64,000 nucleotides of DNA from Candidatus Woesearchaeota archaeon. GTDB taxonomy: Archaea; Nanobdellota; Nanobdellia; Woesearchaeales; ARS49. The position numbers were made by a program, and so were the translations under genes. Below are positions 26,878 through 45,840 of this stretch, in pieces. How positions within the stretch are numbered: position 1 is the stretch's first letter; each line of letters begins with the position of its first letter. Location of the stretch: contig JAFCDQ010000002.1 in the NCBI GenBank assembly GCA_017609645.1, positions 159,823-223,822 on the forward strand, read 5' to 3'. Below the pieces are notes generated by a model, which was not told the origin of the DNA, did no database searches, and saw only the letters and a list, made by a program, of their open reading frames with translations.

Positions 26878-28776
26878 ATGTGCGGAATATGCGGATTTAA
26901 CTGGGAAGATAAAAAATTAGTCAAGAACATGGCTAAAGTCCTCAATCATAGAGGATCAGATGACACAGGACATTATACTGACAAGAATATTTCATTAGGA
27001 CACAAAAGACTTTCTATACTGGATTTAAGCAAAAAAGGAAAACAACCAATGACAAATAAGCAAGGAACAACAATAACCTATAATGGAGAAGTATATAACT
27101 TCAAAGAAATAAGAGAAATGCTTGAAAAAAAAGGTTATCGCTTTAAATCAAACACAGACACAGAAGTAATACTAAACGCATACGAAGAATTTGGAGAAAA
27201 ATGCCTTGAATTATTCAACGGCATGTTCACATTCTGTATTTATGATATGAAAAAGAAAAAATTGTTCGTAGCAAGAGACAGAATAGGAATAAAACCCTTA
27301 TACTATTATTATGACGGTGAAGATTTTATCTTTGCATCTGAAATAAAATCAATACTAGAACATGATATTGAAAGAAAAGTAAACCTGCAAGCAATGAACA
27401 ACTACATCACACTAAGATATAATTTCAGCACACAAACATTATTTGACAAAATAAAAAAACTGCCCGCAGCACACTATATAACATTTGACTTAAAGAAAAA
27501 ACAATTAGAGCTTAAAGAATACTGGCAGCTGAAATGGAAACCAATCAAAGCACCTGAAAGATACTTTAAAGAAAAACTTTACAGCTTATTCAAAGAAGCT
27601 GTCAGAAAAAGATTGATTTCTGATGTGCCGCTTGGATTATTCTTAAGCGGAGGAGTTGATTCAGGAAGCATCGCAGCATTAATGAGAGAAATAAAAAAAG
27701 AACAAGATGATGGAGAAGAAATAAAAACATTCAGCGTCGGATTTGAACAAGGAGAATTTGTCAATGAACTAGAAGAAGCAAAATACATCAGCAACATGTT
27801 TGATACAAAACACAGAGAATACATGGTTAAATCATCAATAGCAAAAGTTCTGCCAAAAATAATATATCATTTAGATGAACCAATAGCAGACCCTGCGCTA
27901 ATGCCATTATACTTGCTTTCAGAAAAAGCAAAGAAAGAAGTAACAGTTGTACTGACAGGAGACGGCGGAGATGAAGTATTTGGAGGATATGACCAATACA
28001 AATTCTTACTTCTGGGGAAAAAAATATCAAAAATACCATTTGCACATACATTACTGCCGACAGCAATGAGTCTGACGCCAAAAAAAATACTCAACAAATA
28101 TTACAAATACACTGAATCAATGGGAGAAGAAGGATTGAAGCGGATAAGTAGATTCTTAAAACATTCAAACAAGAATTCAGCAAGAGCATATTATGAACTA
28201 ATATCAATATACGACGAAAAAGAAAGAAAAAAAATAATGAAAGAAGATAAATTCAGAAGTATAAATTATTTTGAATTAAACAAAGAATATTACAAAACAA
28301 AAAGAAATCTGCTCAAAAACATAACATATTTTGACATGAAAAAACTGCTGCCAAAATGTTATTTGATGAAAACAGACAGAATGACAATGGCTCACTCAAT
28401 TGAAGCAAGAGTCCCATTGCTAGACCATGAAATAGTAGAATTCGGTTTTAGAATGCCAAGCAAATACAAAATAAAAAAAGGAAAAACAAAATACATTTTA
28501 AGGGAAGCAATGACCAAACACATACCAAGAAACTATCTATACAAGAAAAAACAAACATTTCACGTGCCAATAGACAACTGGATACAAAATGACCTGAAAG
28601 ATTATGTTCAACAAGTTCTAAGCAAAGAAAACATTAATAAGCAAGGCTATTTTAATTATAAATACATAGAAAAAATACACAGAAACTACAAAAAATCACA
28701 ATTATTTTACGCCAGGCAATTATGGAATCTACTCAATTTCCAACTCTGGCATGAACAATTCATAGAAAAGAGGTAA
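26878..28776 (+). CDS. Asparagine synthetase B-like amidotransferase (copy 1)
   Basis: MCGICGFNW (Cys2), LNHRGSDDTGHY, ITYNGEVYNF, LFLSGGVDSGSIAALM, LTGDGGDEVFGGYDQY. Confidence 0.93.
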   Translation: MCGICGFNWEDKKLVKNMAKVLNHRGSDDTGHYTDKNISLGHKRLSILDLSKKGKQPMTNKQGTTITYNGEVYNFKEIREMLEKKGYRFKSNTDTEVILNAYEEFGEKCLELFNGMFTFCIYDMKKKKLFVARDRIGIKPLYYYYDGEDFIFASEIKSILEHDIERKVNLQAMNNYITLRYNFSTQTLFDKIKKLPAAHYITFDLKKKQLELKEYWQLKWKPIKAPERYFKEKLYSLFKEAVRKRLISDVPLGLFLSGGVDSGSIAALMREIKKEQDDGEEIKTFSVGFEQGEFVNELEEAKYISNMFDTKHREYMVKSSIAKVLPKIIYHLDEPIADPALMPLYLLSEKAKKEVTVVLTGDGGDEVFGGYDQYKFLLLGKKISKIPFAHTLLPTAMSLTPKKILNKYYKYTESMGEEGLKRISRFLKHSNKNSARAYYELISIYDEKERKKIMKEDKFRSINYFELNKEYYKTKRNLLKNITYFDMKKLLPKCYLMKTDRMTMAHSIEARVPLLDHEIVEFGFRMPSKYKIKKGKTKYILREAMTKHIPRNYLYKKKQTFHVPIDNWIQNDLKDYVQQVLSKENINKQGYFNYKYIEKIHRNYKKSQLFYARQLWNLLNFQLWHEQFIEKR

Positions 28777-28779
28777 ATA

Positions 28780-30657
28780 ATGGGTCTTGAAAAATTTGTG
28801 AAAGAACATAAAAAAGATTTACTGTTTCTAAGCGGATTAATCATATTCTTTCTAGTAATGAATATAATGATGACTTCTGAGATGAAACAATTAAATGCTC
28901 CCCTATATGGCGGCGACAGATATTACCAACTAGGCTGCATCAATCATATAAGATATGGCGGAGATGATTTTGAAAACTGCAATCTACTAAGCGATAATGC
29001 AGGTTATCTGCCATTTTTCGGCATAGTAGAAGCAAAAATAGCCAATCTTCTCGGAATTGACAATACAATAGAAGCAATGATAATATCATCAAACATAATG
29101 ATAGTGTTAGCAGTAATTTTCTCTTATCTGCTTTTTAGATTTGTTTCGAGAAAACCATATCTAGCAGCGATGGGCACTCTGTTGCTTCTTTTTAATTTTA
29201 GACCAATATTCAAATACACACAATTCGCAATATACATAATTAATCCTTTATTTATTTTGGCAGTGTTTTTGTTCTATAAAAAACCAAACATTAAAAGAGC
29301 AATATTCATTGGAATAACAGCAGGATTAAACACAATAACACACAGCGTCTTATTTCCTGCAACATATTTTACAATAGCAGTTTTATTCATATTTCTTCTT
29401 TTTGATAAAAAATTCAATTTCAAAACGGATAAAACAAGTTTTATCCATAATCTGAAAAAATTAATTCCCTTATTTTTGATAATCGCAATAATAGCAGTTC
29501 CATTGTCAATGCTTCACTGGGGAGAACCAATATTCAAACATGGAATGCAAACCTCGCCACATTATCTAGAATGGAACGGGCCAGGAGATATGTCAAATTT
29601 TGGCCTGCAAATCAATATAGCAACAGGAATCATCAAAGGACAATTCTTCCAATTCACTTCATCAAAAACCGTAATCGCATCAATATTAAGCATTTTTGGA
29701 ATAATCTTCTTAATCGCACTGAAGAAAAAAACAGACAATATTAAATTTGTAACATTAATGCTTACAACACTGGCATTAATAACATTCAGTTATTTCATAA
29801 CAGTTCCATTATTCAACACACACTTTGTTCCAAATTACATGTTTAGTGTTTTCGGCGCGGCAATAATTACCTGCTTTTTATTAATAAGCTTCAATATATT
29901 GATTAACCTCATCACACAAATAAGTCCGCTCAAAATTAGAAAATATATATTTATTCTACCTTTAGCAATTATAATTTTATTACTCATAGGCCAAGTAACT
30001 GCAGTAGAAAAATATCAAGAAGAATACAAATGGTATGAAGTTGCTAAACAACCATTATCTGCAAGCCATTCAAGCATGCGAAATTTCATTTTAGAAAATA
30101 CTGAAGTGAATGATGTCTTCTTAACATCTAAAGAAGTAGGTTTTGCATTAAATGCATTAACAGGAAGAAAATTGCTTGTGGGAAGAAGAGCTCAAAATGA
30201 TGCATTTGAAAATCTGGATGAACGAGAAATGACCTCCGCAATCATTCTCTATGGAAAAGATACAGAAATCAAGAAAAAATTAATTGAAAAATACAATATT
30301 AAATATTTATACTGGGAGCCTTATTGGATACAATCAGAATATTACTTTGACAATAAAGGCCAAATAGCAGGATGGTTTGATCCATTAATAGCCTTTGATA
30401 ATAATGATTATAGAAAAATATTGGAAAAAAACAATGTCAAATTTTCTATTAAAAACACTCATGTAGATCCTTCATTAAAATCAGAATATCATCCTACATT
30501 TGATTTGATATTTATTACACCAGATAATTACCATAATGCAACACACCCTTGGAATCCGAACCTAGATGAATTCTTAGAAGAAATATGGACTCATACGCAA
30601 AATGGACAGAAAAGTGCAATCATATATAAAATAAAAATAAATAAAAATGAAGAATAA
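28780..30657 (+). CDS. Polytopic membrane protein (possible GT-C-type glycosyltransferase)
   Basis: 625 aa with many hydrophobic helices and a polar C-terminal domain; sits between AsnB and AglB. Confidence 0.65.
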   Translation: MGLEKFVKEHKKDLLFLSGLIIFFLVMNIMMTSEMKQLNAPLYGGDRYYQLGCINHIRYGGDDFENCNLLSDNAGYLPFFGIVEAKIANLLGIDNTIEAMIISSNIMIVLAVIFSYLLFRFVSRKPYLAAMGTLLLLFNFRPIFKYTQFAIYIINPLFILAVFLFYKKPNIKRAIFIGITAGLNTITHSVLFPATYFTIAVLFIFLLFDKKFNFKTDKTSFIHNLKKLIPLFLIIAIIAVPLSMLHWGEPIFKHGMQTSPHYLEWNGPGDMSNFGLQINIATGIIKGQFFQFTSSKTVIASILSIFGIIFLIALKKKTDNIKFVTLMLTTLALITFSYFITVPLFNTHFVPNYMFSVFGAAIITCFLLISFNILINLITQISPLKIRKYIFILPLAIIILLLIGQVTAVEKYQEEYKWYEVAKQPLSASHSSMRNFILENTEVNDVFLTSKEVGFALNALTGRKLLVGRRAQNDAFENLDEREMTSAIILYGKDTEIKKKLIEKYNIKYLYWEPYWIQSEYYFDNKGQIAGWFDPLIAFDNNDYRKILEKNNVKFSIKNTHVDPSLKSEYHPTFDLIFITPDNYHNATHPWNPNLDEFLEEIWTHTQNGQKSAIIYKIKINKNEE

Positions 30658-31000
30658 AACAATTGCAATATTAATCATAACAGCATGCAGCTTATTAACA
30701 GCATTTGGCATGATATTCTGGAAAATAGGTGCTGATAAATTAGCATTTAACTGGAGTTTACTAACAAATTATCCACTTTGGCTGGGATTTATCTTTTATG
30801 CAATAGGAACTCTTCTCTTGATTTTATCATTAAAATACGGCAATTTATCGCTAGTGCATCCATTTTTATCATTAGGATTAATATGGGCAGGCATTCTTGC
30901 ATTTTTTTATTTAGGCGAAACCTTCACAACATTAAAAACAACAGGAACTGCCTTAATCATATTAGGAACATTTCTCGTTTACAAAGGTGATAAAACATGA
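30647..31000 (+). CDS. EamA/SMR-type small transporter subunit (ArnE/ArnF-like)
   Basis: 117 aa, four hydrophobic helices; LALKYG-type 'LSLKYGNLSLVHPFLSLGLIWAGILAFFYLGE' signature. Confidence 0.75.
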   Translation: MKNKTIAILIITACSLLTAFGMIFWKIGADKLAFNWSLLTNYPLWLGFIFYAIGTLLLILSLKYGNLSLVHPFLSLGLIWAGILAFFYLGETFTTLKTTGTALIILGTFLVYKGDKT

Positions 31001-31320
31001 ATTATCTGATTCCAATCATCATAATATTCTTCAACTGCATACTAGGAGCGTTAGGAGCCTTCTTGATGAAAAAAGGAGCTAACAAGAAATTAATCAACTG
31101 GCATAATTTTTTAGGAATTTCATTATATGTTATTGGCTCAATAATATTTGTCATAACCTTAAAATTCGCTCCAGTAAGCATACTTTATCCAATAACTGGT
31201 TCAACATATATATGGAGTTTTATATTAGCTAAAATATATTTAAAAGAACACATCACGAAGTATAAGATTTTAGGCCTGAGTATTATAATTTTAGGTATAA
31301 TTTTCATCACAATCAGCTAA
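30997..31320 (+). CDS. EamA/SMR-type small transporter subunit (second of pair)
   Basis: 107 aa, four hydrophobic helices; VITLKFAPVSILYPITGSTYIWSFILAKIYLKEHIT; ATGA overlap with the preceding ORF. Confidence 0.75.
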   Translation: MNYLIPIIIIFFNCILGALGAFLMKKGANKKLINWHNFLGISLYVIGSIIFVITLKFAPVSILYPITGSTYIWSFILAKIYLKEHITKYKILGLSIIILGIIFITIS

Positions 31321-31360: not shown

Positions 31361-34300
31361 ATGGATGATACGCCAGAAGAACCCAAAAAAGAGTCTGAAA
31401 AAATAGAAATTGACTGGAAAGAAAAATATCTGAAAGCCAAAAAATTCTCAGTCAAATATGGGATTTTACTTGTTTTATTATTAGTAATAATATTACAGGT
31501 CATGCCAAACTCAGAAGGAAAACTCCCTTGGGGAGGCCTGCAGATGCGAATGCTCACAAAAGAGCTTCCTTCAACAGACAAATGGGCGAAAAGCAATGTA
31601 GAAGAATTCTATAAAAATGAAATTAAAAAAGTAGTCGCCAAAGAATATCCCAACCTGCCTGACATCAACAAAAAAGAAGTATTAACAGATAAATGGGCAG
31701 AATTCCAGAAAAATAATAAAGAAGAAATACAAAAACAAACAGAAGCGACAAAAAAAGAACTTCTAAAACATTTTCAATATACTTATGAAGGAAAACAATA
31801 TCTATATCTTCCTGACATAGACCCTTATTATTATTTTAGAAAAACAAGAAATTTAATTGAAACAGGAACTCCCTGCGATGAAGTAAAAGACGGCATCCCT
31901 TGGGATAATCACATGGCAGCACCATTTGGACAGGCCTGCGGAGGAAATTCTCATGCATATGTTTTATTTGGGATATATAAAATCAATAAATTATTTGACA
32001 GCAAAATAGACCTTTTACAATCAGCAGCAAAATTCTCGCCAATAATAATATTCTTATCAATCATACTTGCTTATTTTATTGGCTTAAAACTTGCAGGAAA
32101 GACAGCCGGATTTTTCTCAGCATTAATGATAGGAATACTACCTTCAATCTTTACTAGAACTCCTTGGGGTCATGCAGACACAGATGCGTACAATACTTTT
32201 TTCCCCTTATTAGCACTGTTCACTTTATTTATGGCATTAGATGCAAAAAAAATAAAAAATAAAATAATATGGGCAATCATCACAGGCCTTGTATTTGTGG
32301 CTTATAGTTATTTCTGGAGCGGATGGTGGTTCATGTTTGATGTTATTTTAGGAGGCTTAGGTGTTTGGATAATAGTAGAAATTATCAAAGCTTATAAAAA
32401 GAAAAATTACAAAAACTTGCCAAAAATAATCGCACCTGTTGCAAGCTTTTTTTTAACAACATTAATAATAATGAGTTTATTAAAAGGAATTAATTATTTT
32501 TTTGGATTTATAACAAATCCGCTTAGCAGAACAGCAATGAAAGATGCTGCAAAATCAACATTATGGCCAAATGTATTCACAACAGTAGCAGAACTAAACA
32601 AAGGAAGCTGGTCAAAAATAATAGCATCTATGGGAGGCAATCTATTATTTTTAATTGCGTTAATAGGCGTAGTGCTGGCATTATGGCTAAAAGATGAAAA
32701 AGGACAAAGAAACCTTAAACTAGCAGCAATCTTAACATTTTGGTTTATCTTCTCAATATATGCCAGCTTTAAAGGTGTAAGATTTATGCTTTTATTAGCG
32801 CCTGCATTTGCAATAGCATTTGGAGTAGGCGCAGGTCTAATCACAAAAAAACTAAGTGAATTTGGTCAGAACAATCTAGGAATAAGCAAAAAAATAGGCG
32901 CAATAATATTAATATTACTTTTCGGTGTAATGATAGCAACATCAGGAATAGCAAAAAAATCATACAAATCTTCAGTAAATGATATTCCAATAGTCAATGA
33001 TGCATGGTATAATTCACTCAACTATATCAAAGAAAATTCACAAAAAGATGCAATAATAAACAGCTGGTGGGATTATGGCCACCATTTCAAATATTTCGCA
33101 GATAGAGCAGTAACCTTTGATGGAGCGAGCCAAAACACTCCAATGGCGCACTGGATAGGACGTGTTTTAGTAACTGAGGAGGAAGATGAAGCAATAGGCA
33201 TACTCAGAATGCTTGACTGCGGAAGCAACAAAGCATTTGAAATAATAGATGAACAATTTAATGACGCACCAAAATCAGTCTCTATATTATACAAAATATT
33301 CAAATTAGACAAAGAAGAAGCAAAGCAAGTTCTAGAAGATGAAGGAGTAGATGCAGAAGAAGTAACAAAATACACTCATTGTGAAGCGCCAGAAAACTTC
33401 TTCATAACAAGCGGAGATATGTTAGGAAAAGCAGGAGTTTGGGCTCACTTTGGATTATGGGACTTTATGAAAGCAGATATGTGGATGAATATGAGAAAAT
33501 TAAGTAAGCTTGATTTTGAAAAGAAAGTGATGGAAAAATATCAGTTAACAGAAAAAGAAGCAGAAACATACTACAACAAATTGCAAAGCGTAACAGACGA
33601 AAAAGAAGCAAACAATTGGATAAGTCCTTGGCCAGGATTTCCAACAAGACCTGCAAGCTGTTCACGAGAGGAAAACGAATTAAGCTGTGGAAGCGGATTA
33701 AAAATAGACTTAAACAAAAATGAAGCATCTGTAGAAACTGCACAAGGAAAAGGAATTCCTCATTCATTAATTTACTTTGATGCAAACAAAGAAATGGTTG
33801 AAATAAAACAAGAAAAATCAAATATGGACTTAAGTGTAATATTAATTCCAAAATCAAACTTAAATTATAATGCAATATTATTATCAAAAGAATTAGCAAG
33901 AAGCATGTTCACAAGATTATACTTCTTAGAAGGACATGGCTTAAAACATTTTGAAAAAGTATACTCTGACAGAGAATTAACACAAGGAGACTTATATGTA
34001 TGGAAAGTAGACTGGCAAGGCCAGCAAAATAACTTATTAAGCATAATGAAACCAAAAACAGAAGTAAAAAAAGGAAATAAAATTGCTATCAATTACATAG
34101 GCTGGCTGGAAAATGGCACAATATTTGACTCAAGCATAATAGATTGGAAAGAAAAAGACATAACAACTGATGCTAATTTTGATGCTTATGAAACAAAACC
34201 ATTAACTCTTCCAGCAGGAACAGGGCAACTAATAAAAGGATTTGATGAAGCATTAATTGGAATGAAACCAGGTGAAGAAAAAACAGTCAATATACCTCCT

Positions 34301-34387
34301 GAAAAAGCATACGGCACAGATCCAGATGCGCATTTTCTAGGAAATAAGACATTAAACTTCAAAATAAAAATTGAGAAAATACTTTAA
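31361..34387 (+). CDS. aglB: Oligosaccharyltransferase AglB/STT3 fused to a C-terminal FKBP-type peptidyl-prolyl isomerase domain
   Basis: Multi-TM STT3 with INSWWDYGHHFKYFADR. C-terminus (about 34050-34384): VKKGNKIAINYIGWLENGTIFDSS...LTLPAGTGQLIKGFDEALIGMKPGEEKTVNIPPEKAYG. Confidence 0.93.
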   Translation: MDDTPEEPKKESEKIEIDWKEKYLKAKKFSVKYGILLVLLLVIILQVMPNSEGKLPWGGLQMRMLTKELPSTDKWAKSNVEEFYKNEIKKVVAKEYPNLPDINKKEVLTDKWAEFQKNNKEEIQKQTEATKKELLKHFQYTYEGKQYLYLPDIDPYYYFRKTRNLIETGTPCDEVKDGIPWDNHMAAPFGQACGGNSHAYVLFGIYKINKLFDSKIDLLQSAAKFSPIIIFLSIILAYFIGLKLAGKTAGFFSALMIGILPSIFTRTPWGHADTDAYNTFFPLLALFTLFMALDAKKIKNKIIWAIITGLVFVAYSYFWSGWWFMFDVILGGLGVWIIVEIIKAYKKKNYKNLPKIIAPVASFFLTTLIIMSLLKGINYFFGFITNPLSRTAMKDAAKSTLWPNVFTTVAELNKGSWSKIIASMGGNLLFLIALIGVVLALWLKDEKGQRNLKLAAILTFWFIFSIYASFKGVRFMLLLAPAFAIAFGVGAGLITKKLSEFGQNNLGISKKIGAIILILLFGVMIATSGIAKKSYKSSVNDIPIVNDAWYNSLNYIKENSQKDAIINSWWDYGHHFKYFADRAVTFDGASQNTPMAHWIGRVLVTEEEDEAIGILRMLDCGSNKAFEIIDEQFNDAPKSVSILYKIFKLDKEEAKQVLEDEGVDAEEVTKYTHCEAPENFFITSGDMLGKAGVWAHFGLWDFMKADMWMNMRKLSKLDFEKKVMEKYQLTEKEAETYYNKLQSVTDEKEANNWISPWPGFPTRPASCSREENELSCGSGLKIDLNKNEASVETAQGKGIPHSLIYFDANKEMVEIKQEKSNMDLSVILIPKSNLNYNAILLSKELARSMFTRLYFLEGHGLKHFEKVYSDRELTQGDLYVWKVDWQGQQNNLLSIMKPKTEVKKGNKIAINYIGWLENGTIFDSSIIDWKEKDITTDANFDAYETKPLTLPAGTGQLIKGFDEALIGMKPGEEKTVNIPPEKAYGTDPDAHFLGNKTLNFKIKIEKIL

Positions 34388-34396
34388 TCATGAAAC

Positions 34397-35539
34397 ATGA
34401 AAATCTGTTTTATAAATCCAACAATATTAATTAAAAGGCCTATTTCTGAAATAATTAATACACTAGAAGAAAAAGAAGGTATAGACGAAATAGGACTGCT
34501 TTGCCCAACAAAAATAGGCAAAAAAATAGACAAATCATTATATCATACTGAATTATTAAAAAAAGTAAAAATATATACTTATCCAACATTTCAACTACCC
34601 TTCGTAAAATCAGAATGGCCAATGCCGCTGCCATCATTTTTCTTCAAAACATTCAAAATATTCAAAAAATATGATATCATTCATATGTGGGTTTATTTTT
34701 ATTTAAGCAGTTTCTGGATAACATTTACAAAATTATTCTTTCCAAAGAAAAAATTGATATTGACTATGGACACTGTACCAGGAGAATCATTCAAGACAGG
34801 GAAACTAATGGATGCCTGCTTTAGACTATATCACAAATTATTCGGCTGGTTTATTTTTGGAGTGCCAAAAAAAATAACATTATACGGCAAGTCATTAATT
34901 CCTTTTGCAAAAAAAGCAGGAATAAAAGAAAAAAAGATTGAAGTTATTCCCACAGGAATTAATAATGAGAAATTTGACGGGGAATATATCAATTTAAGAA
35001 ATGAATTCCACATTAAAGACGATGAAAAAATGATACTATTCATCGGATTAATGCTAAAAAGAAAAGGAATAGATATAATATTAAAAACATTAAACAAACT
35101 AAAAGAAGAAAAATTCAAAATGATCTTTGTAGGAGGCGGGCCTGAAAAAAAAGAATTTGAAAACCTGGCTCAAAAACTTGGCTTGGGAGAAAAAGTAATA
35201 TTTACAGGTGTCAGAAAAGATGTAAAAGACTTATGCAGAACAGCAGATATCTTTTTCCTGCCTTCACGAGGAGAAGGTTTGCCTGGAGTTGTAATGGAAG
35301 CAATGAGCTGCAGTCTTCCCCTATTAAGCTCAAAAATACCCTGCACAACCGATCTTGTAAAAGACACAGAGAATGGATATTTATGTGAAATCGAAGATAT
35401 TGACTGTTATTCTCAAAAATTAAAAGAACTTCTTCAAATCAAAGAATTAAGAGAAAAAATGGGTCTAAAATCCAAAGAATTAATAAAGAACTTCTCATGG
35501 GACAAAAGCATTAAGCGCTTTGAGGAAATATATAAATGA
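34397..35539 (+). CDS. GT4-family glycosyltransferase
   Basis: VIPTGINNEKF, MILFIGLMLKRKGIDIILKTL, FLPSRGEGLPGVVMEAMSCSLPLL. Confidence 0.9.
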   Translation: MKICFINPTILIKRPISEIINTLEEKEGIDEIGLLCPTKIGKKIDKSLYHTELLKKVKIYTYPTFQLPFVKSEWPMPLPSFFFKTFKIFKKYDIIHMWVYFYLSSFWITFTKLFFPKKKLILTMDTVPGESFKTGKLMDACFRLYHKLFGWFIFGVPKKITLYGKSLIPFAKKAGIKEKKIEVIPTGINNEKFDGEYINLRNEFHIKDDEKMILFIGLMLKRKGIDIILKTLNKLKEEKFKMIFVGGGPEKKEFENLAQKLGLGEKVIFTGVRKDVKDLCRTADIFFLPSRGEGLPGVVMEAMSCSLPLLSSKIPCTTDLVKDTENGYLCEIEDIDCYSQKLKELLQIKELREKMGLKSKELIKNFSWDKSIKRFEEIYK

Positions 35540-36624
35540 AAATAGCTCACTTAATTACGGGCTTAGGAATGGGGGGAGCAGAAAGAATGCTTCTAAAGAC
35601 CCTTCCAAGACTTAAAAACGAAAACTTCATAATTAGTTTAACAAGCAATGATGCTTTTGGTAAAAGGATAGAAGAAGCAGGAATAAAAGTATATTATCTA
35701 GGTTTAAAAAAACTCAACCTACTATCTGCCATACTTAGATTCAGAAAAATACTAAAAAAAGAAAAACCAAACTTACTAAACTGTTATTTAATACACTCAA
35801 ATATCTTTGGCAGAATATTTGGCAAACTATTTAGCGTGAAAAAAATCATCTGTTCTGTCAGAAACAAGCACATAAACAGGCGATTTCTCAACTTTCTTGA
35901 CAGAAGAACATCTTTTTTAGTTGATTTATATACTCCAAATTCTTATGTATTGGTGCCTTTTTTAACAGAACATCAAAAAATCAAAGAAAAAAAAATCAAA
36001 GTTATTGAAAATGGAATAGAATTAGAGAAATTTGATTTTGATATAGATAAAGAAAAAAAGAAAAAAGAATTAGGAATAGAAAAAGAATTTGTAGTCAGCT
36101 GTATCGCAAAATTAGAAAAACAAAAAGGGTATCTAACTCTGATAAAAGCAATAAAAGAACTGAGTAATCCAGATTTTTTATTTTTGTTCATAGGAGACGG
36201 CAAAGAGAGAAAAGAATTAGAAGAACTGAGTGAAAAATTAGGTGTTAAAGATAAAATAAGATTTCTTGGCTGGAGAAGTGACACAAAGGAATTGCTTAGG
36301 ATAACAGATTTATTTATTCTGCCAAGCTTTCATGAAGGAATGAGCAACTCGCTTCTAGAAGCAATGATTTCAAAAGTCTGCTGTCTTGTCTCAGATATAG
36401 ACGAGAATAAAGAATTAATAAAAAACGAAGAAAACGGACTAACATTTATCACAGGCGACCATAAAGATTTAGCTGAAAAAATTTCATATTTACACAAAAA
36501 TGAAAAATTAAGAAAAAAATATGCAGAAAAAGCTGAAGAAACAGTAAAGAAAAGATTTGATATAAACAAAACTGTGGAAAAATACACAGAAGTTATGGAA
36601 AATGTGTGGAATTCTAGGATTTAA
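35536..36624 (+). CDS. GT4-family glycosyltransferase
   Basis: HLITGLGMGGAERMLLKTL, VIENGIELEKF, ILPSFHEGMSNSLLEAM. Confidence 0.92.
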   Translation: MKIAHLITGLGMGGAERMLLKTLPRLKNENFIISLTSNDAFGKRIEEAGIKVYYLGLKKLNLLSAILRFRKILKKEKPNLLNCYLIHSNIFGRIFGKLFSVKKIICSVRNKHINRRFLNFLDRRTSFLVDLYTPNSYVLVPFLTEHQKIKEKKIKVIENGIELEKFDFDIDKEKKKKELGIEKEFVVSCIAKLEKQKGYLTLIKAIKELSNPDFLFLFIGDGKERKELEELSEKLGVKDKIRFLGWRSDTKELLRITDLFILPSFHEGMSNSLLEAMISKVCCLVSDIDENKELIKNEENGLTFITGDHKDLAEKISYLHKNEKLRKKYAEKAEETVKKRFDINKTVEKYTEVMENVWNSRI

Positions 36625-39083: not shown

Positions 39084-39862
39084 AAGGACACCAACATTTA
39101 AAATATGAAGAATTAATCATGCTCACAACACAGGGTGTCCACGAGAAAGTTTTTGAAATCATTCGCAATAAAAAAATTCAAAAACAAGCAGCAATTTTAG
39201 ATTTAGGCGCAGGCACCGGAAGCTTTGATAAAAGGCTGATTGATAATGGATTTAAAGAAATAACGGCAGTTGATATAGTTGCAAATAATTATAAGTACAA
39301 AAATAAATTTGTAAAATTTCTCTGTTTAGACCTAAATGCCAACTTCTCTGCAAAAATAAACAAAAAATTTGACTTAATAATCGCGACAGATGTTATCGAA
39401 CATTTAGCTTCTCCCCACAACTTCATTAAAGAGTGTAAAAATCTATTAAAAAAAGAAGGCACATTAATTATAAATACACCAAATTTACATAATTTACAAT
39501 CAAGAATTAATTTTTTAATTTGGGGCTATCCAAGTTATTTTATAGTAAAACCACAGAAAGCAGGGATCCACCACCACTCAGAAGAATGGAAAGAAGAATT
39601 TTCACACATATCTCCAGTATTTGACAATATACTTATGTGTTTATTAAATGAAAATAATTTAGAACTAGAAAAAAGAATGCCTTGTTCAAGTTATACTAAA
39701 CACTTTAAATTTTACACAAAAAAAAGTTATTTTTATTTTTTGATAATTAGTTTACTTAGAGTCCTGCTTGTTCCAATGATGATGTTTAATAGAAAATTAT
39801 TAAAAGGGACAGAGGTAATATATGTAATTCAAAATAAAGAAAATTCAAGATGTGCGGAATAA
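39080..39862 (+). CDS. Class I SAM methyltransferase (tandem paralog B)
   Basis: AAILDLGAGTGSFDKRLIDNGFKEITAVDI, FDLIIATDVIEHLASPHNFIKECKNLL; closely similar to the preceding ORF. Confidence 0.88.
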   Translation: MKGHQHLKYEELIMLTTQGVHEKVFEIIRNKKIQKQAAILDLGAGTGSFDKRLIDNGFKEITAVDIVANNYKYKNKFVKFLCLDLNANFSAKINKKFDLIIATDVIEHLASPHNFIKECKNLLKKEGTLIINTPNLHNLQSRINFLIWGYPSYFIVKPQKAGIHHHSEEWKEEFSHISPVFDNILMCLLNENNLELEKRMPCSSYTKHFKFYTKKSYFYFLIISLLRVLLVPMMMFNRKLLKGTEVIYVIQNKENSRCAE

Positions 39863-41670
39863 TTGGATTCAATTGGAATGATTTGCTACGAGTAAAAAAA
39901 CTTGCTGCTTTAGTAAATCACAGAGGTCCTGATCAAGAGGGAGCATATACGGATAAAAATGTTTCTCTAGGCCATAAAAGATTAAGCATTATAGATTTAT
40001 CTGAAAAAGGAAAGCAACCCATGAGCAGCAGTGACCAAACTATATGGATAACTTATAATGGAGAAATATTCAATTTTCAAGAAATAAAAAAAGAACTAAT
40101 TTCCAAAGGATATAAATTCAAATCGAAGACAGATACAGAAGTTATAATTGAGGGATATAAAGAGTATGGAACAAAAATATTAGATAAATTAAACGGACAA
40201 TTTGCTTTTTGTATATACGATAAAAAAAAAGAACAATTATTTCTTGCGAGAGACCGCATTGGAATAAATCCTCTTTATTATTATTTTGATGGAAATAAAT
40301 TTATTTTTGGATCAGAATTAAAAATAATTATGGGTGCAGGCATTAAAAAAGAAATTAATAGATTTGCACTTAATTATTATTTAATGTACGGCCACACCCC
40401 AAGAAAACAGAGTATTCTAGAAAATACATATAAACTAGAACCGGGTCATTTTATGATTTTTGATTTAAAAAATAAAAAAATAAAAAAATACACGAAATAT
40501 TGGGGCATACATTTAACAGATGAAATTAAAGATGAAAAACTTGCAAAAAAAATAATTCTGGAAAAACTAGATGAATCAGTAAAAAAAAGATTAATTGCAG
40601 ATGTTCCTGTAGGCGCATTCTTATCAGGAGGACTTGACAGTAGCGCAGTTGTTGCATTAATGAGCAAATACACAAAAAATCTCAATACTTTCTCTATAAA
40701 ATTTGATTATCAAGATTTTGATGAATCAAAATATGCAGAAATTGTATCAAAAAAATTTGAAACAAAACATCATGTAATCAAATTTTCAGCAAAAGATGTT
40801 AAAGAATTGCTTCCAAAACTAGTTTACCATTATGACGAACCATTCGGTGATCCTTCAATGATACCAACATATCTAGTATCAAAAGTAGCAAAACAGCATG
40901 TTACTGTATCATTATCAGGAGATGGGGGAGATGAGTTATTTGGAGGGTATAATTCTTACAAACATTTCAGACTGTTAAACTTCCAGAAATATTATCCTGC
41001 CTTCATTAACAAAATACTATATAAATTATTTAAACCAATCAAAAATCATTTTTTTGTAAAGCCTCGGGCATTTTGGGAATTAGGAACGCTACCAAAAAAA
41101 CATAAATTTGCACGACTAATGAGCTATTTAAGTATGGATGAATTTAAACAAATCACTGGAGAAGACCCAATAAAATATTATGAGGCATATGGAGGAGCTT
41201 ATTTTAGAAAAAATTATCTAGACAATGCACAAACAATAGATATTCATACTTACTTACCAGATAATAATCAAACAAAAGTTGACAGATCTTCTATGGCAAA
41301 TAGCCTAGAAACGAGACCTCCTATTTTAGATCATGAACTAATAGAAAAAGCCACAAAATTTCATCATAGTCTGCGTTTAAAAGGGCGAAATGGCAAATAT
41401 ATATTCAAGAAAGCTCTTGAGGGCATTTTACCAAAAAAAGTTTTATATAGAAAAAAACAAGGATTTGGAGTTCCATTAAAATATTATTTCCGGAACGAAC
41501 TGAAAGATATGGTTTATGAGTATGTGATTAATTTTACTGAGCATAACCTATTTGACAGCAGCTTTATCAAAAAGATAATAGCTAAAAAGAAATGGGGAAG
41601 AGATTACTCTAGAATTATCTGGTCGATTTTGATTTTTAATTTATGGTGGCAGAAATGGATGAAAAATTAG
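39850..41670 (+). CDS. Asparagine synthetase B-like amidotransferase (copy 2)
   Basis: MCGIIGFNWND, VNHRGPDQEGAYTD, AFLSGGLDSSAVVALM, LSGDGGDELFGGYNSY. Confidence 0.93.
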   Translation: MCGIIGFNWNDLLRVKKLAALVNHRGPDQEGAYTDKNVSLGHKRLSIIDLSEKGKQPMSSSDQTIWITYNGEIFNFQEIKKELISKGYKFKSKTDTEVIIEGYKEYGTKILDKLNGQFAFCIYDKKKEQLFLARDRIGINPLYYYFDGNKFIFGSELKIIMGAGIKKEINRFALNYYLMYGHTPRKQSILENTYKLEPGHFMIFDLKNKKIKKYTKYWGIHLTDEIKDEKLAKKIILEKLDESVKKRLIADVPVGAFLSGGLDSSAVVALMSKYTKNLNTFSIKFDYQDFDESKYAEIVSKKFETKHHVIKFSAKDVKELLPKLVYHYDEPFGDPSMIPTYLVSKVAKQHVTVSLSGDGGDELFGGYNSYKHFRLLNFQKYYPAFINKILYKLFKPIKNHFFVKPRAFWELGTLPKKHKFARLMSYLSMDEFKQITGEDPIKYYEAYGGAYFRKNYLDNAQTIDIHTYLPDNNQTKVDRSSMANSLETRPPILDHELIEKATKFHHSLRLKGRNGKYIFKKALEGILPKKVLYRKKQGFGVPLKYYFRNELKDMVYEYVINFTEHNLFDSSFIKKIIAKKKWGRDYSRIIWSILIFNLWWQKWMKN

Positions 41671-44487: not shown

Positions 44488-45840
44488 ATGGACAAGATCA
44501 AATATCTGAATAAAGAATTTGTCTCGGAAGAGACAATTAGGAATTTAAATAGACTTAAAAATAATGAAAATATAGAAAATATATACTGTTTGATTGAATC
44601 CCACATTAAAAAATTTTCAGAAACTCCCTCAAGCATATGTATAAAAACAAACAGTAAAAAAATATATCCAGATTATTCAAGTTCTCTCAACTGCGGTATG
44701 GGGTTGCTGCAGACAAATCTTAATATTTGTGATTTGAGAAATAAAATAGTGAAAATATTTCAAGAGATAAACAACAAAACAACATTGAGTATTATTAAAA
44801 GGTACCTGGGAAGAAAAGAAGTCAATAAAAAAGAATTAGAAGAGATATTCTATAAAGGTATTGAAGCTATGCCTTCAAGATACAACAAAATAAACAATGC
44901 ATTCGGCAATGAAGGGAATGTAGTGAAAGATAAAGAAGTTAAAAAAGATGAGATAATAAAAGCTATTCCTAACTTTTTATATAGAGGCGCATTAAGAGAA
45001 TTAGGAAAAAATGCCGGCGGCAATCACTTTATTGAAATGCAAATCATTGATGAGATATTTGACCATAAAATAAAAGCTAAAAAAGGAGATGTTTATTTCA
45101 TGATTCATCTTGGAACAGGATATTTAGGCGATAATTTTAATAATGTATACTTAAAGAGAAAAAATAATTCTCTAAAGACAACCTTTGCTATTGGTCCAAA
45201 ATTCTTCAACATACAAAAACTATTCTTTTTGATAAAAACATTTGGAATATATTATATAATAAGAAATTTTAAGAAATTATTCAAAAAGAGTAAATTAAAA
45301 GGGCTTGAAAACAACACAAAAAGAGCAAAATACTACATCAATGGAAGCCATGCAATTATGAATTTTGGATATGCCTGGAGATACGCAACTTATTCAAAAA
45401 TAATTGATGTATTGAAGAAAGTAAGTGAAAAAGAATTAAAATATAAATTATTGCTTGATAGATCACATAATTCAATTTTTCAAGAAAAAGAAAACTATTA
45501 TTATCTAAGAAACTGCTGCAAACTTAAAAAAACAGGAGATCTTTTCATTCTGCCAGGAAATTATTGCAATAATTCATATTTATGCCAAACGCTTCCAAAA
45601 TTAAAGAAAATAGGATTCAACATAGACCATGGATTAGGTATGCTTTTAAAGAAGGACAAAGAAAAAGATCTTACTTTTATGTATAAATGCAAAAGAACTA
45701 GAATCATTAGCGGAAAAATAAAATACAAAAAAATCAAACATGAAAAATCACAAAAAATAAATGAGGTCATCAAAAAACTAGAAAAAGAAGGATATTTCAA
45801 AATACTTCTTACATTGAAGCCAATCGCGAGTCTGAAATAA
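44488..45840 (+). CDS. Divergent RtcB-like protein (RNA ligase fold) in a glycan locus
   Basis: Ordered RtcB-like motifs: SLNCGMGLL (vs DINCGVRLL), GKNAGGNHFIEMQ, MIHLGTGYLG (vs HSGSRGLG), INGSHAIMNFGYAWRY, LLDRSHNSIF (vs DVSHNI), LFILPGNYCNNSYLC (vs PGSMGTASYV), IDHGLGM (vs CHGAGR). Confidence 0.8.
   Translation: MDKIKYLNKEFVSEETIRNLNRLKNNENIENIYCLIESHIKKFSETPSSICIKTNSKKIYPDYSSSLNCGMGLLQTNLNICDLRNKIVKIFQEINNKTTLSIIKRYLGRKEVNKKELEEIFYKGIEAMPSRYNKINNAFGNEGNVVKDKEVKKDEIIKAIPNFLYRGALRELGKNAGGNHFIEMQIIDEIFDHKIKAKKGDVYFMIHLGTGYLGDNFNNVYLKRKNNSLKTTFAIGPKFFNIQKLFFLIKTFGIYYIIRNFKKLFKKSKLKGLENNTKRAKYYINGSHAIMNFGYAWRYATYSKIIDVLKKVSEKELKYKLLLDRSHNSIFQEKENYYYLRNCCKLKKTGDLFILPGNYCNNSYLCQTLPKLKKIGFNIDHGLGMLLKKDKEKDLTFMYKCKRTRIISGKIKYKKIKHEKSQKINEVIKKLEKEGYFKILLTLKPIASLK

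Follow-up and report, generated by a model that had tools for sequence, protein, structure and literature searches.

The window analysed here, a stretch of 64,000 nucleotides from the genome of a Candidatus Woesearchaeota archaeon, contains an open reading frame that seems to join an oligosaccharyltransferase (OST) of the AglB/STT3 type to a prolyl isomerase (PPIase) of the FKBP type. The locus raises the question of whether both enzymes really belong to one polypeptide and, if so, what an isomerase does on an enzyme of N-glycosylation. Woesearchaeota are uncultivated archaea with small genomes, and the coordination of N-glycosylation and folding has been studied mainly in eukaryotes, in which separate subunits (Ost3/Ost6, FKBP11 and CCDC134) are added to STT3.

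The fusion gene and its surroundings

The features of the window are listed in Table 1. The translation of the fusion gene contained no stop, in agreement with an earlier note on this DNA that had described an uninterrupted 1008-aa frame, and the WWDYGH catalytic motif named there was recovered as WWDYGHH. The Pfam matches to STT3, STT3-PglB_core and FKBP_C all exceeded the curated cut-offs. The set of OST catalytic motifs was complete, and nearly all of its residues, including the DxD-type aspartates D273 and D275, were invariant across 80 aligned relatives; we take TVAELN to correspond to SVSE/TIXE in OSTs, and DMLGK is presumably the DK/MI-type motif. Hydrophobic segments were confined to residues 29-530. 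From these motifs the protein is predicted to be the N-glycosylating AglB of this member of the Woesearchaeota, transferring lipid-linked glycan to N-x-S/T sequons; the fusion gene was the only STT3 gene in the 1.1-Mb genome.

The closest PDB sequence match was the archaeal FKBP 1ix5 (residues 902-986, 1.1e-15), with human STT3A next in rank. An AlphaFold2 model based on the 80-sequence alignment depicted a single compact protein (mean pLDDT 93.8, pTM 0.88), with high confidence throughout the junction region. In Foldseek searches the body of the model matched PglB (E 8.7e-22, TMt 0.69), human and yeast STT3 and Archaeoglobus AglB, and its C-terminal end matched FKBP25, FKBP13 and archaeal FKBP26; the FKBP domain gave a TMt of 0.81 to FKBP13/FKBP2. 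Fold and catalytic motifs are thus common to the window protein and the single-subunit OSTs that were its top Foldseek matches (Archaeoglobus AglB 3wak/7e9s; PglB 5ogl/6gxc), but to our knowledge none of the solved AglB, PglB and STT3 chains that it matched carries a PPIase domain.

The gene is surrounded by glycosyltransferases, sugar-nucleotide enzymes and asparagine-synthase-like enzymes, which form a glycan assembly cluster. The EamA/SMR-like pair upstream could be a flippase for lipid-linked sugar, and the 625-aa membrane protein might act as a glycosyltransferase in the glycan pathway.

Table 1. Features of the window, with positions counted from its first nucleotide and residues from the start of the fusion protein.
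Feature	Residues	Position	Strand	Evidence or remark
Asparagine-synthase-like gene		26878-28776		Judged from sequence
625-aa polytopic membrane protein		28780-30657		Without Pfam match; flanked by the AsnB-like gene and the two EamA genes
Two adjacent small EamA/SMR-like membrane proteins		30647..31320	+	Pfam EamA 2e-5 (below cut-off) and 6e-9
AglB-FKBP fusion gene		31361..34387	+	Open frame, 1008 aa; Pfam; AF2 model; architecture shared by 26/342 genomes
STT3 domain, mostly membrane part	149-489	31805..32827	+	Pfam PF02516, 9.5e-35
TVAELN motif	408-413	32582..32599	+	T408, V409, A410, E411 invariant in 80 relatives
STT3-PglB_core domain	566-631	33056..33253	+	Pfam PF21436, 1.3e-6
WWDYGHH	569-575	33065-33085	+	W569, W570, D571, G573, H574 invariant in 80 relatives
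DMLGK	686-690	33416..33430	+	D686, M687, K690 invariant in 80 relatives
FKBP-type prolyl isomerase domain	900-1004	34058..34372	+	Pfam PF00254 FKBP_C, 3.8e-21
Sequon NGT, FKBP domain	918-920	34112..34120	+	Sequon at this position in 13/35 fused relatives
Sequon NKT, before last FKBP strand	995-997	34343..34351	+	31/35 fused rows and L036
Two GT4-type glycosyltransferases, directly downstream of fusion gene		34397..36624	+	Pfam Glycos_transf_1, 1e-39 and 8e-40
Asparagine-synthase-like gene		39850-41670		Pfam
RtcB-like protein, tRNA-splicing ligase family		44488-45840		6e-31; adjoins the glycan cluster

Distribution of the AglB-FKBP architecture

BLAST searches of 26 genomes from the family of the window yielded full-length relatives that crossed the junction at 41-49% identity, with open frames spanning some 1000-1100 aa. 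Together with the Pfam matches to STT3 and FKBP_C, these relatives establish that the STT3-FKBP fusion proposed by the earlier note is genuine, and uniqueness to the window genome was rejected. A junction profile, built from the last STT3 segment plus FKBP, was run on 342 genomes of the phylum and matched in 26, which were separated from weaker matches by a clean gap (1e-55 to 3.6e-26). These 26 genomes all belong to the order of the window, and the named carriers are almost all Candidatus Woesearchaeota. A chimeric assembly, a missed stop or a repaired frameshift was therefore rejected as the origin of the fusion: although the source data are metagenome assemblies and a few of the records bear wrong labels (e.g. 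L063), the same junction recurs at 40-50% identity in many separately assembled genomes and the model crosses it with high confidence, so that such an artefact is excluded for practical purposes and its chance is negligible.

Two records carried unexpected names. The AglBs of L063 (JAUXFB010000246.1, titled Aminicenantes bacterium) and L048 (JACQIC010000042.1, titled Aenigmatarchaeota) fell within the Woesearchaeota group, and these are probable binning or naming errors. Some genomes carried two or more AglB paralogues; in G010 (L010 and L031) and G011 (L012 and L032) one paralogue had the FKBP and the other lacked it, possibly a division of labour by analogy with STT3A/STT3B.

Three PPIase folds at one position

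FKBP as the sole partner of AglB was rejected, since parvulin and cyclophilin tails were found on related AglBs. Pfam placed a parvulin at the same C-terminal position in L109, L111, L135 and L152 (Rotamase and Rotamase_3, the latter with E-values of 1e-28, 2e-25, 2e-30 and 2e-28), and a cyclophilin at the C-terminus of L114 (Pro_isomerase, 3e-48). More cases came from order-wide searches with the Pfam models, followed by inspection of the frames. The FKBP-bearing AglBs of the order comprised the window protein and 34 further unique proteins, at least 16 unique AglBs carried a parvulin, and three carried a cyclophilin (families f49, f60 and f27; 3 genomes of a 288-genome sample); AglB cores with a C-terminal PPIase of each fold were confirmed by Pfam or by profile. 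A parvulin junction profile matched 17 of the same 342 genomes, all from the order of the window. When the sample was split by counting from the genome listing, 43 of the 193 genomes of the order contained an FKBP or parvulin fusion, as against none of the 149 genomes from other orders of the class; the AglB-PPIase fusion is restricted to one order in the sample. The architecture, widespread in this order (26/342 genomes for FKBP, which is only one of three folds), did not turn out to be a one-off.

Parvulins and cyclophilins have folds unrelated to FKBP and are usually separate proteins. By annotation, the parvulins (PrsA/SurA type) and cyclophilins on related AglBs have the same enzymatic activity as FKBP; three unrelated PPIase folds are joined to one enzyme.

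Most AglBs in the order had no PPIase domain, and the last 330 aa of 64 PPIase-free AglBs contained no other Pfam domain beyond the AglB core. PPIase-free AglBs (L019/L076, L087-L120 and others) often ended in a disordered, sequon-rich tail: all 28 non-PPIase tails longer than 25 aa had a sequon, at 6.5 per 100 aa vs 2.9 for the reversed motif, and these tails may be self-glycosylated. A search of 906 kb of sequence from the aglB loci revealed no separate PPIase gene adjacent to aglB. An origin by fusion with a neighbour was rejected on this basis, and read-through of a neighbour is not an evident source.

Evolutionary history

An STT3-core tree (118 proteins, 825 columns, quick LG+G4) required at least 16 changes among the four labels, and well-supported branches forced at least six changes for FKBP, four for parvulin and three for cyclophilin; one parvulin-rich clade included a cyclophilin (L218) and an FKBP (L085) member. 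So many changes imply that losses, replacements or transfers were frequent, and gain is indistinguishable on this tree from loss, replacement and transfer. The PPIase domain trees, with about 100 columns, are too weak to count the fusions within each fold. In these short trees the 35 fused FKBPs were separated from the cytosolic FKBPs by a branch (support 100/99), a single clade of fused parvulins was not rejected (AU p 0.41) and the three fused cyclophilins grouped together with weak support (82). Each fold was certainly recruited at least once, which makes a minimum of three recruitments.

One AglB-FKBP, L036 (G143:C200), carried an FKBP without a loop insertion of ~20 residues that the rest of the fused FKBPs have, grouped with cytosolic FKBPs in the domain tree and had the sequon as GNKT. 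It may represent a second, independent FKBP fusion.

The FKBP module: active site, sequons and location

The reference active-site positions of FKBP12 (Y26, F36, D37, I56, W59 or F, Y82 and F99) have their equivalents in the window domain (Y912, F922, D923, I958, F961, Y984 and F1000). Each was kept in 28-35 of the 35 fused FKBPs (Y26 in 35, D37 in 34, Y82 in 33 and F99 in 35), from which we infer an active prolyl isomerase. Two fused FKBPs from the family of the window, L015 and L018, were degenerate: they had lost active-site residues while conserving the C-terminal sequon, and one of the two domains scored below the Pfam cut-off. Catalysis is hence not always kept, and both domains are candidates for a binding-only role.

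The window domain lacks the insert-in-flap (IF) by which SlyD-type FKBPs are recognised. In fused FKBPs, AYG is joined within a few residues to HPLxNKTL, whereas about 50-60 residues separate AYG from HPL in cytosolic relatives of the same order. FKBPs without this chaperone insert are weak protein-folding catalysts alone, unless some other part provides substrate binding (PMC11013033). The window domain shares the fold, the active-site residues and the HPL..KTLxF strand with SlyD-like archaeal FKBPs (1ix5, MjFKBP26) and with FKBP13/FKBP2 of the ER, but differs from them in being fused to an OST, in having no IF insert, in having gained sequons and in its presumed location outside the cell.

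The last strand reads HPLxNKTLxF in fused FKBPs and HPLAGKTLxF in the cytosolic FKBPs of the order, a difference that creates a sequon, present in 32 of 36 fused domains as against none of 10 cytosolic standalone FKBPs. Fused domains had 2.5 N-x-S/T sequons each, compared with 0.1 in standalone ones; 33 of the 35 fused FKBP tails had at least one, and the sole two sequons of the 1008-aa window protein, NGT and NKT, both lie in the FKBP domain. Hydropathy did not exceed 0.99 beyond residue 545, so no membrane segment separates the catalytic domain from the FKBP which, placed after an extracytoplasmic catalytic domain, should face outside. The extracytoplasmic isomerase anticipated by the earlier note is thereby supported, as judged from family topology, the missing later membrane segments and sequons that cytosolic relatives do not have. 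The sequons fit exposure to the glycosylation side and suggest self-glycosylation. The genome of the window also encodes L004 (G000:C1:399178-399411), an FKBP-like protein of 343 aa that has a membrane anchor at its N-terminus and is apparently the only other outside FKBP of this genome.

A proposed role for the fused isomerase and its alternatives

That three unrelated folds occupy one end of a single enzyme suggests that isomerase or holdase activity is required at the OST itself, and folds that have only PPIase activity in common argue for the activity over a particular surface. We consider it probable, with fair confidence, that the module is an extracytoplasmic substrate-handling part, which holds unfolded chains, or isomerises them, where glycosylation takes place. 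Polypeptides would leave the translocon unfolded, and the C-terminal module would bind the emerging chains next to the catalytic site of the OST, isomerising or holding proline-containing stretches; acceptor sequons would thereby remain flexible and extended, as the OST needs, and folding would start after the glycan is attached. The OST body might replace the substrate-binding role that the IF insert, lost here, has in ordinary archaeal FKBPs. Glycosylation and folding would thus be coupled in the fusion, and binding alone may sometimes be enough, given the degenerate members.

Two known arrangements are comparable. One is the human OST-A translocon with its FKBP11 (PMC12804085), although the doubts about catalysis by FKBP11 count against an active isomerase. 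The other is Ost3/6, whose thioredoxin domain lies opposite the active site of Stt3 and makes sequons more accessible (PMC8191290). Ost3/Ost6 (TUSC3/MAGT1) are a functional analogy, with a folding-enzyme domain next to the active site of Stt3, but the domain is an oxidoreductase on a separate subunit, whereas the AglB fusion has an isomerase in the same chain.

The fusion might instead merely anchor a general extracytoplasmic foldase, with AglB as a convenient and abundant anchor and the isomerase working independently of glycosylation. Its support lies in the small genomes and few outside PPIases of these organisms; the genome of the window had no cyclophilin or parvulin above threshold and four FKBP matches in total, and the order also has parvulins in frames of about 340-640 aa. 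Such anchoring leaves unexplained, however, why all 26 PPIase-bearing frames of more than 650 aa among the matches listed were AglBs (16/16 for parvulin, 3/3 for cyclophilin and 7/7 for FKBP) and why three folds occur at the same place, and several fused genomes (e.g. G001, G017 and G021) have separate cyclophilins and parvulins. We regard it as unlikely, though it is the strongest of the alternatives.

Less likely still, and doubtful in our judgement, is a non-catalytic adaptor, in which the PPIase fold would recruit the translocon, the ribosome or another partner. Its precedent is FKBP11, which sits at the human OST-A secretory translocon, where its active site is buried by CCDC134 and it is argued not to be an isomerase of nascent chains (PMC12804085). 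As proposed for the fusion, FKBP11 is placed next to the OST while translocation proceeds, on the side away from the cytoplasm (PMC12804085). Also consistent with an adaptor are L015 and L018, which keep the fold and the C-terminal sequon despite their lost active-site residues. FKBP11 is, however, a separate membrane-anchored subunit with a ribosome-binding C-terminal helix, whereas the window FKBP is a covalent part of the OST chain, has no anchor of its own and terminates with a strand that no helix follows; there is no evidence of common descent between the two arrangements. The conservation of active-site residues in 28-35 of 35 fused FKBPs speaks against an adaptor, and one adaptor surface would hardly explain three unrelated folds that share only PPIase activity.

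It is very improbable that the tail is an auto-glycosylated accessory, with AglB decorating its own C-terminus for stability or self-regulation: the confinement of both window sequons to the FKBP domain, the sequons of nearly all fused FKBP tails (33/35) and those of every longer PPIase-free tail (28/28) are in its favour, but no cyclophilin-fusion tail had a sequon (0/3), and a disordered tail would serve the purpose without a conserved PPIase active site.

Novelty and meaning of the fusion

In open-access full texts, the scope of the literature search, no description was found of an AglB/OST-PPIase fusion in archaea, including the OST of Woesearchaeota, in line with the earlier suspicion that the architecture is not standard for AglB. 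One paper on archaeal PPIase fusions deals with trigger-factor-like chaperones and not with OSTs (PMC5452302). AglB and FKBP themselves are known enzymes; the novel part is the convergence of three folds.

As a single chain of about 110 kDa, the fusion makes the coupling testable through active-site mutants of one polypeptide, and it is a candidate all-in-one enzyme for glycoprotein production in bacterial or cell-free systems. With a confidence little above even, we propose that N-glycosylation and prolyl isomerisation form one unit in Woesearchaeota, in which the C-terminus of the OST would be a docking position filled interchangeably by FKBP, parvulin or cyclophilin because selection acts on an isomerase or holdase function next to the site of glycosylation; one chain would then correspond to the eukaryotic OST together with its folding subunits. 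The repeated joining of three unrelated helpers to AglB is suggestive of a physical link between sugar attachment and folding in these archaea.
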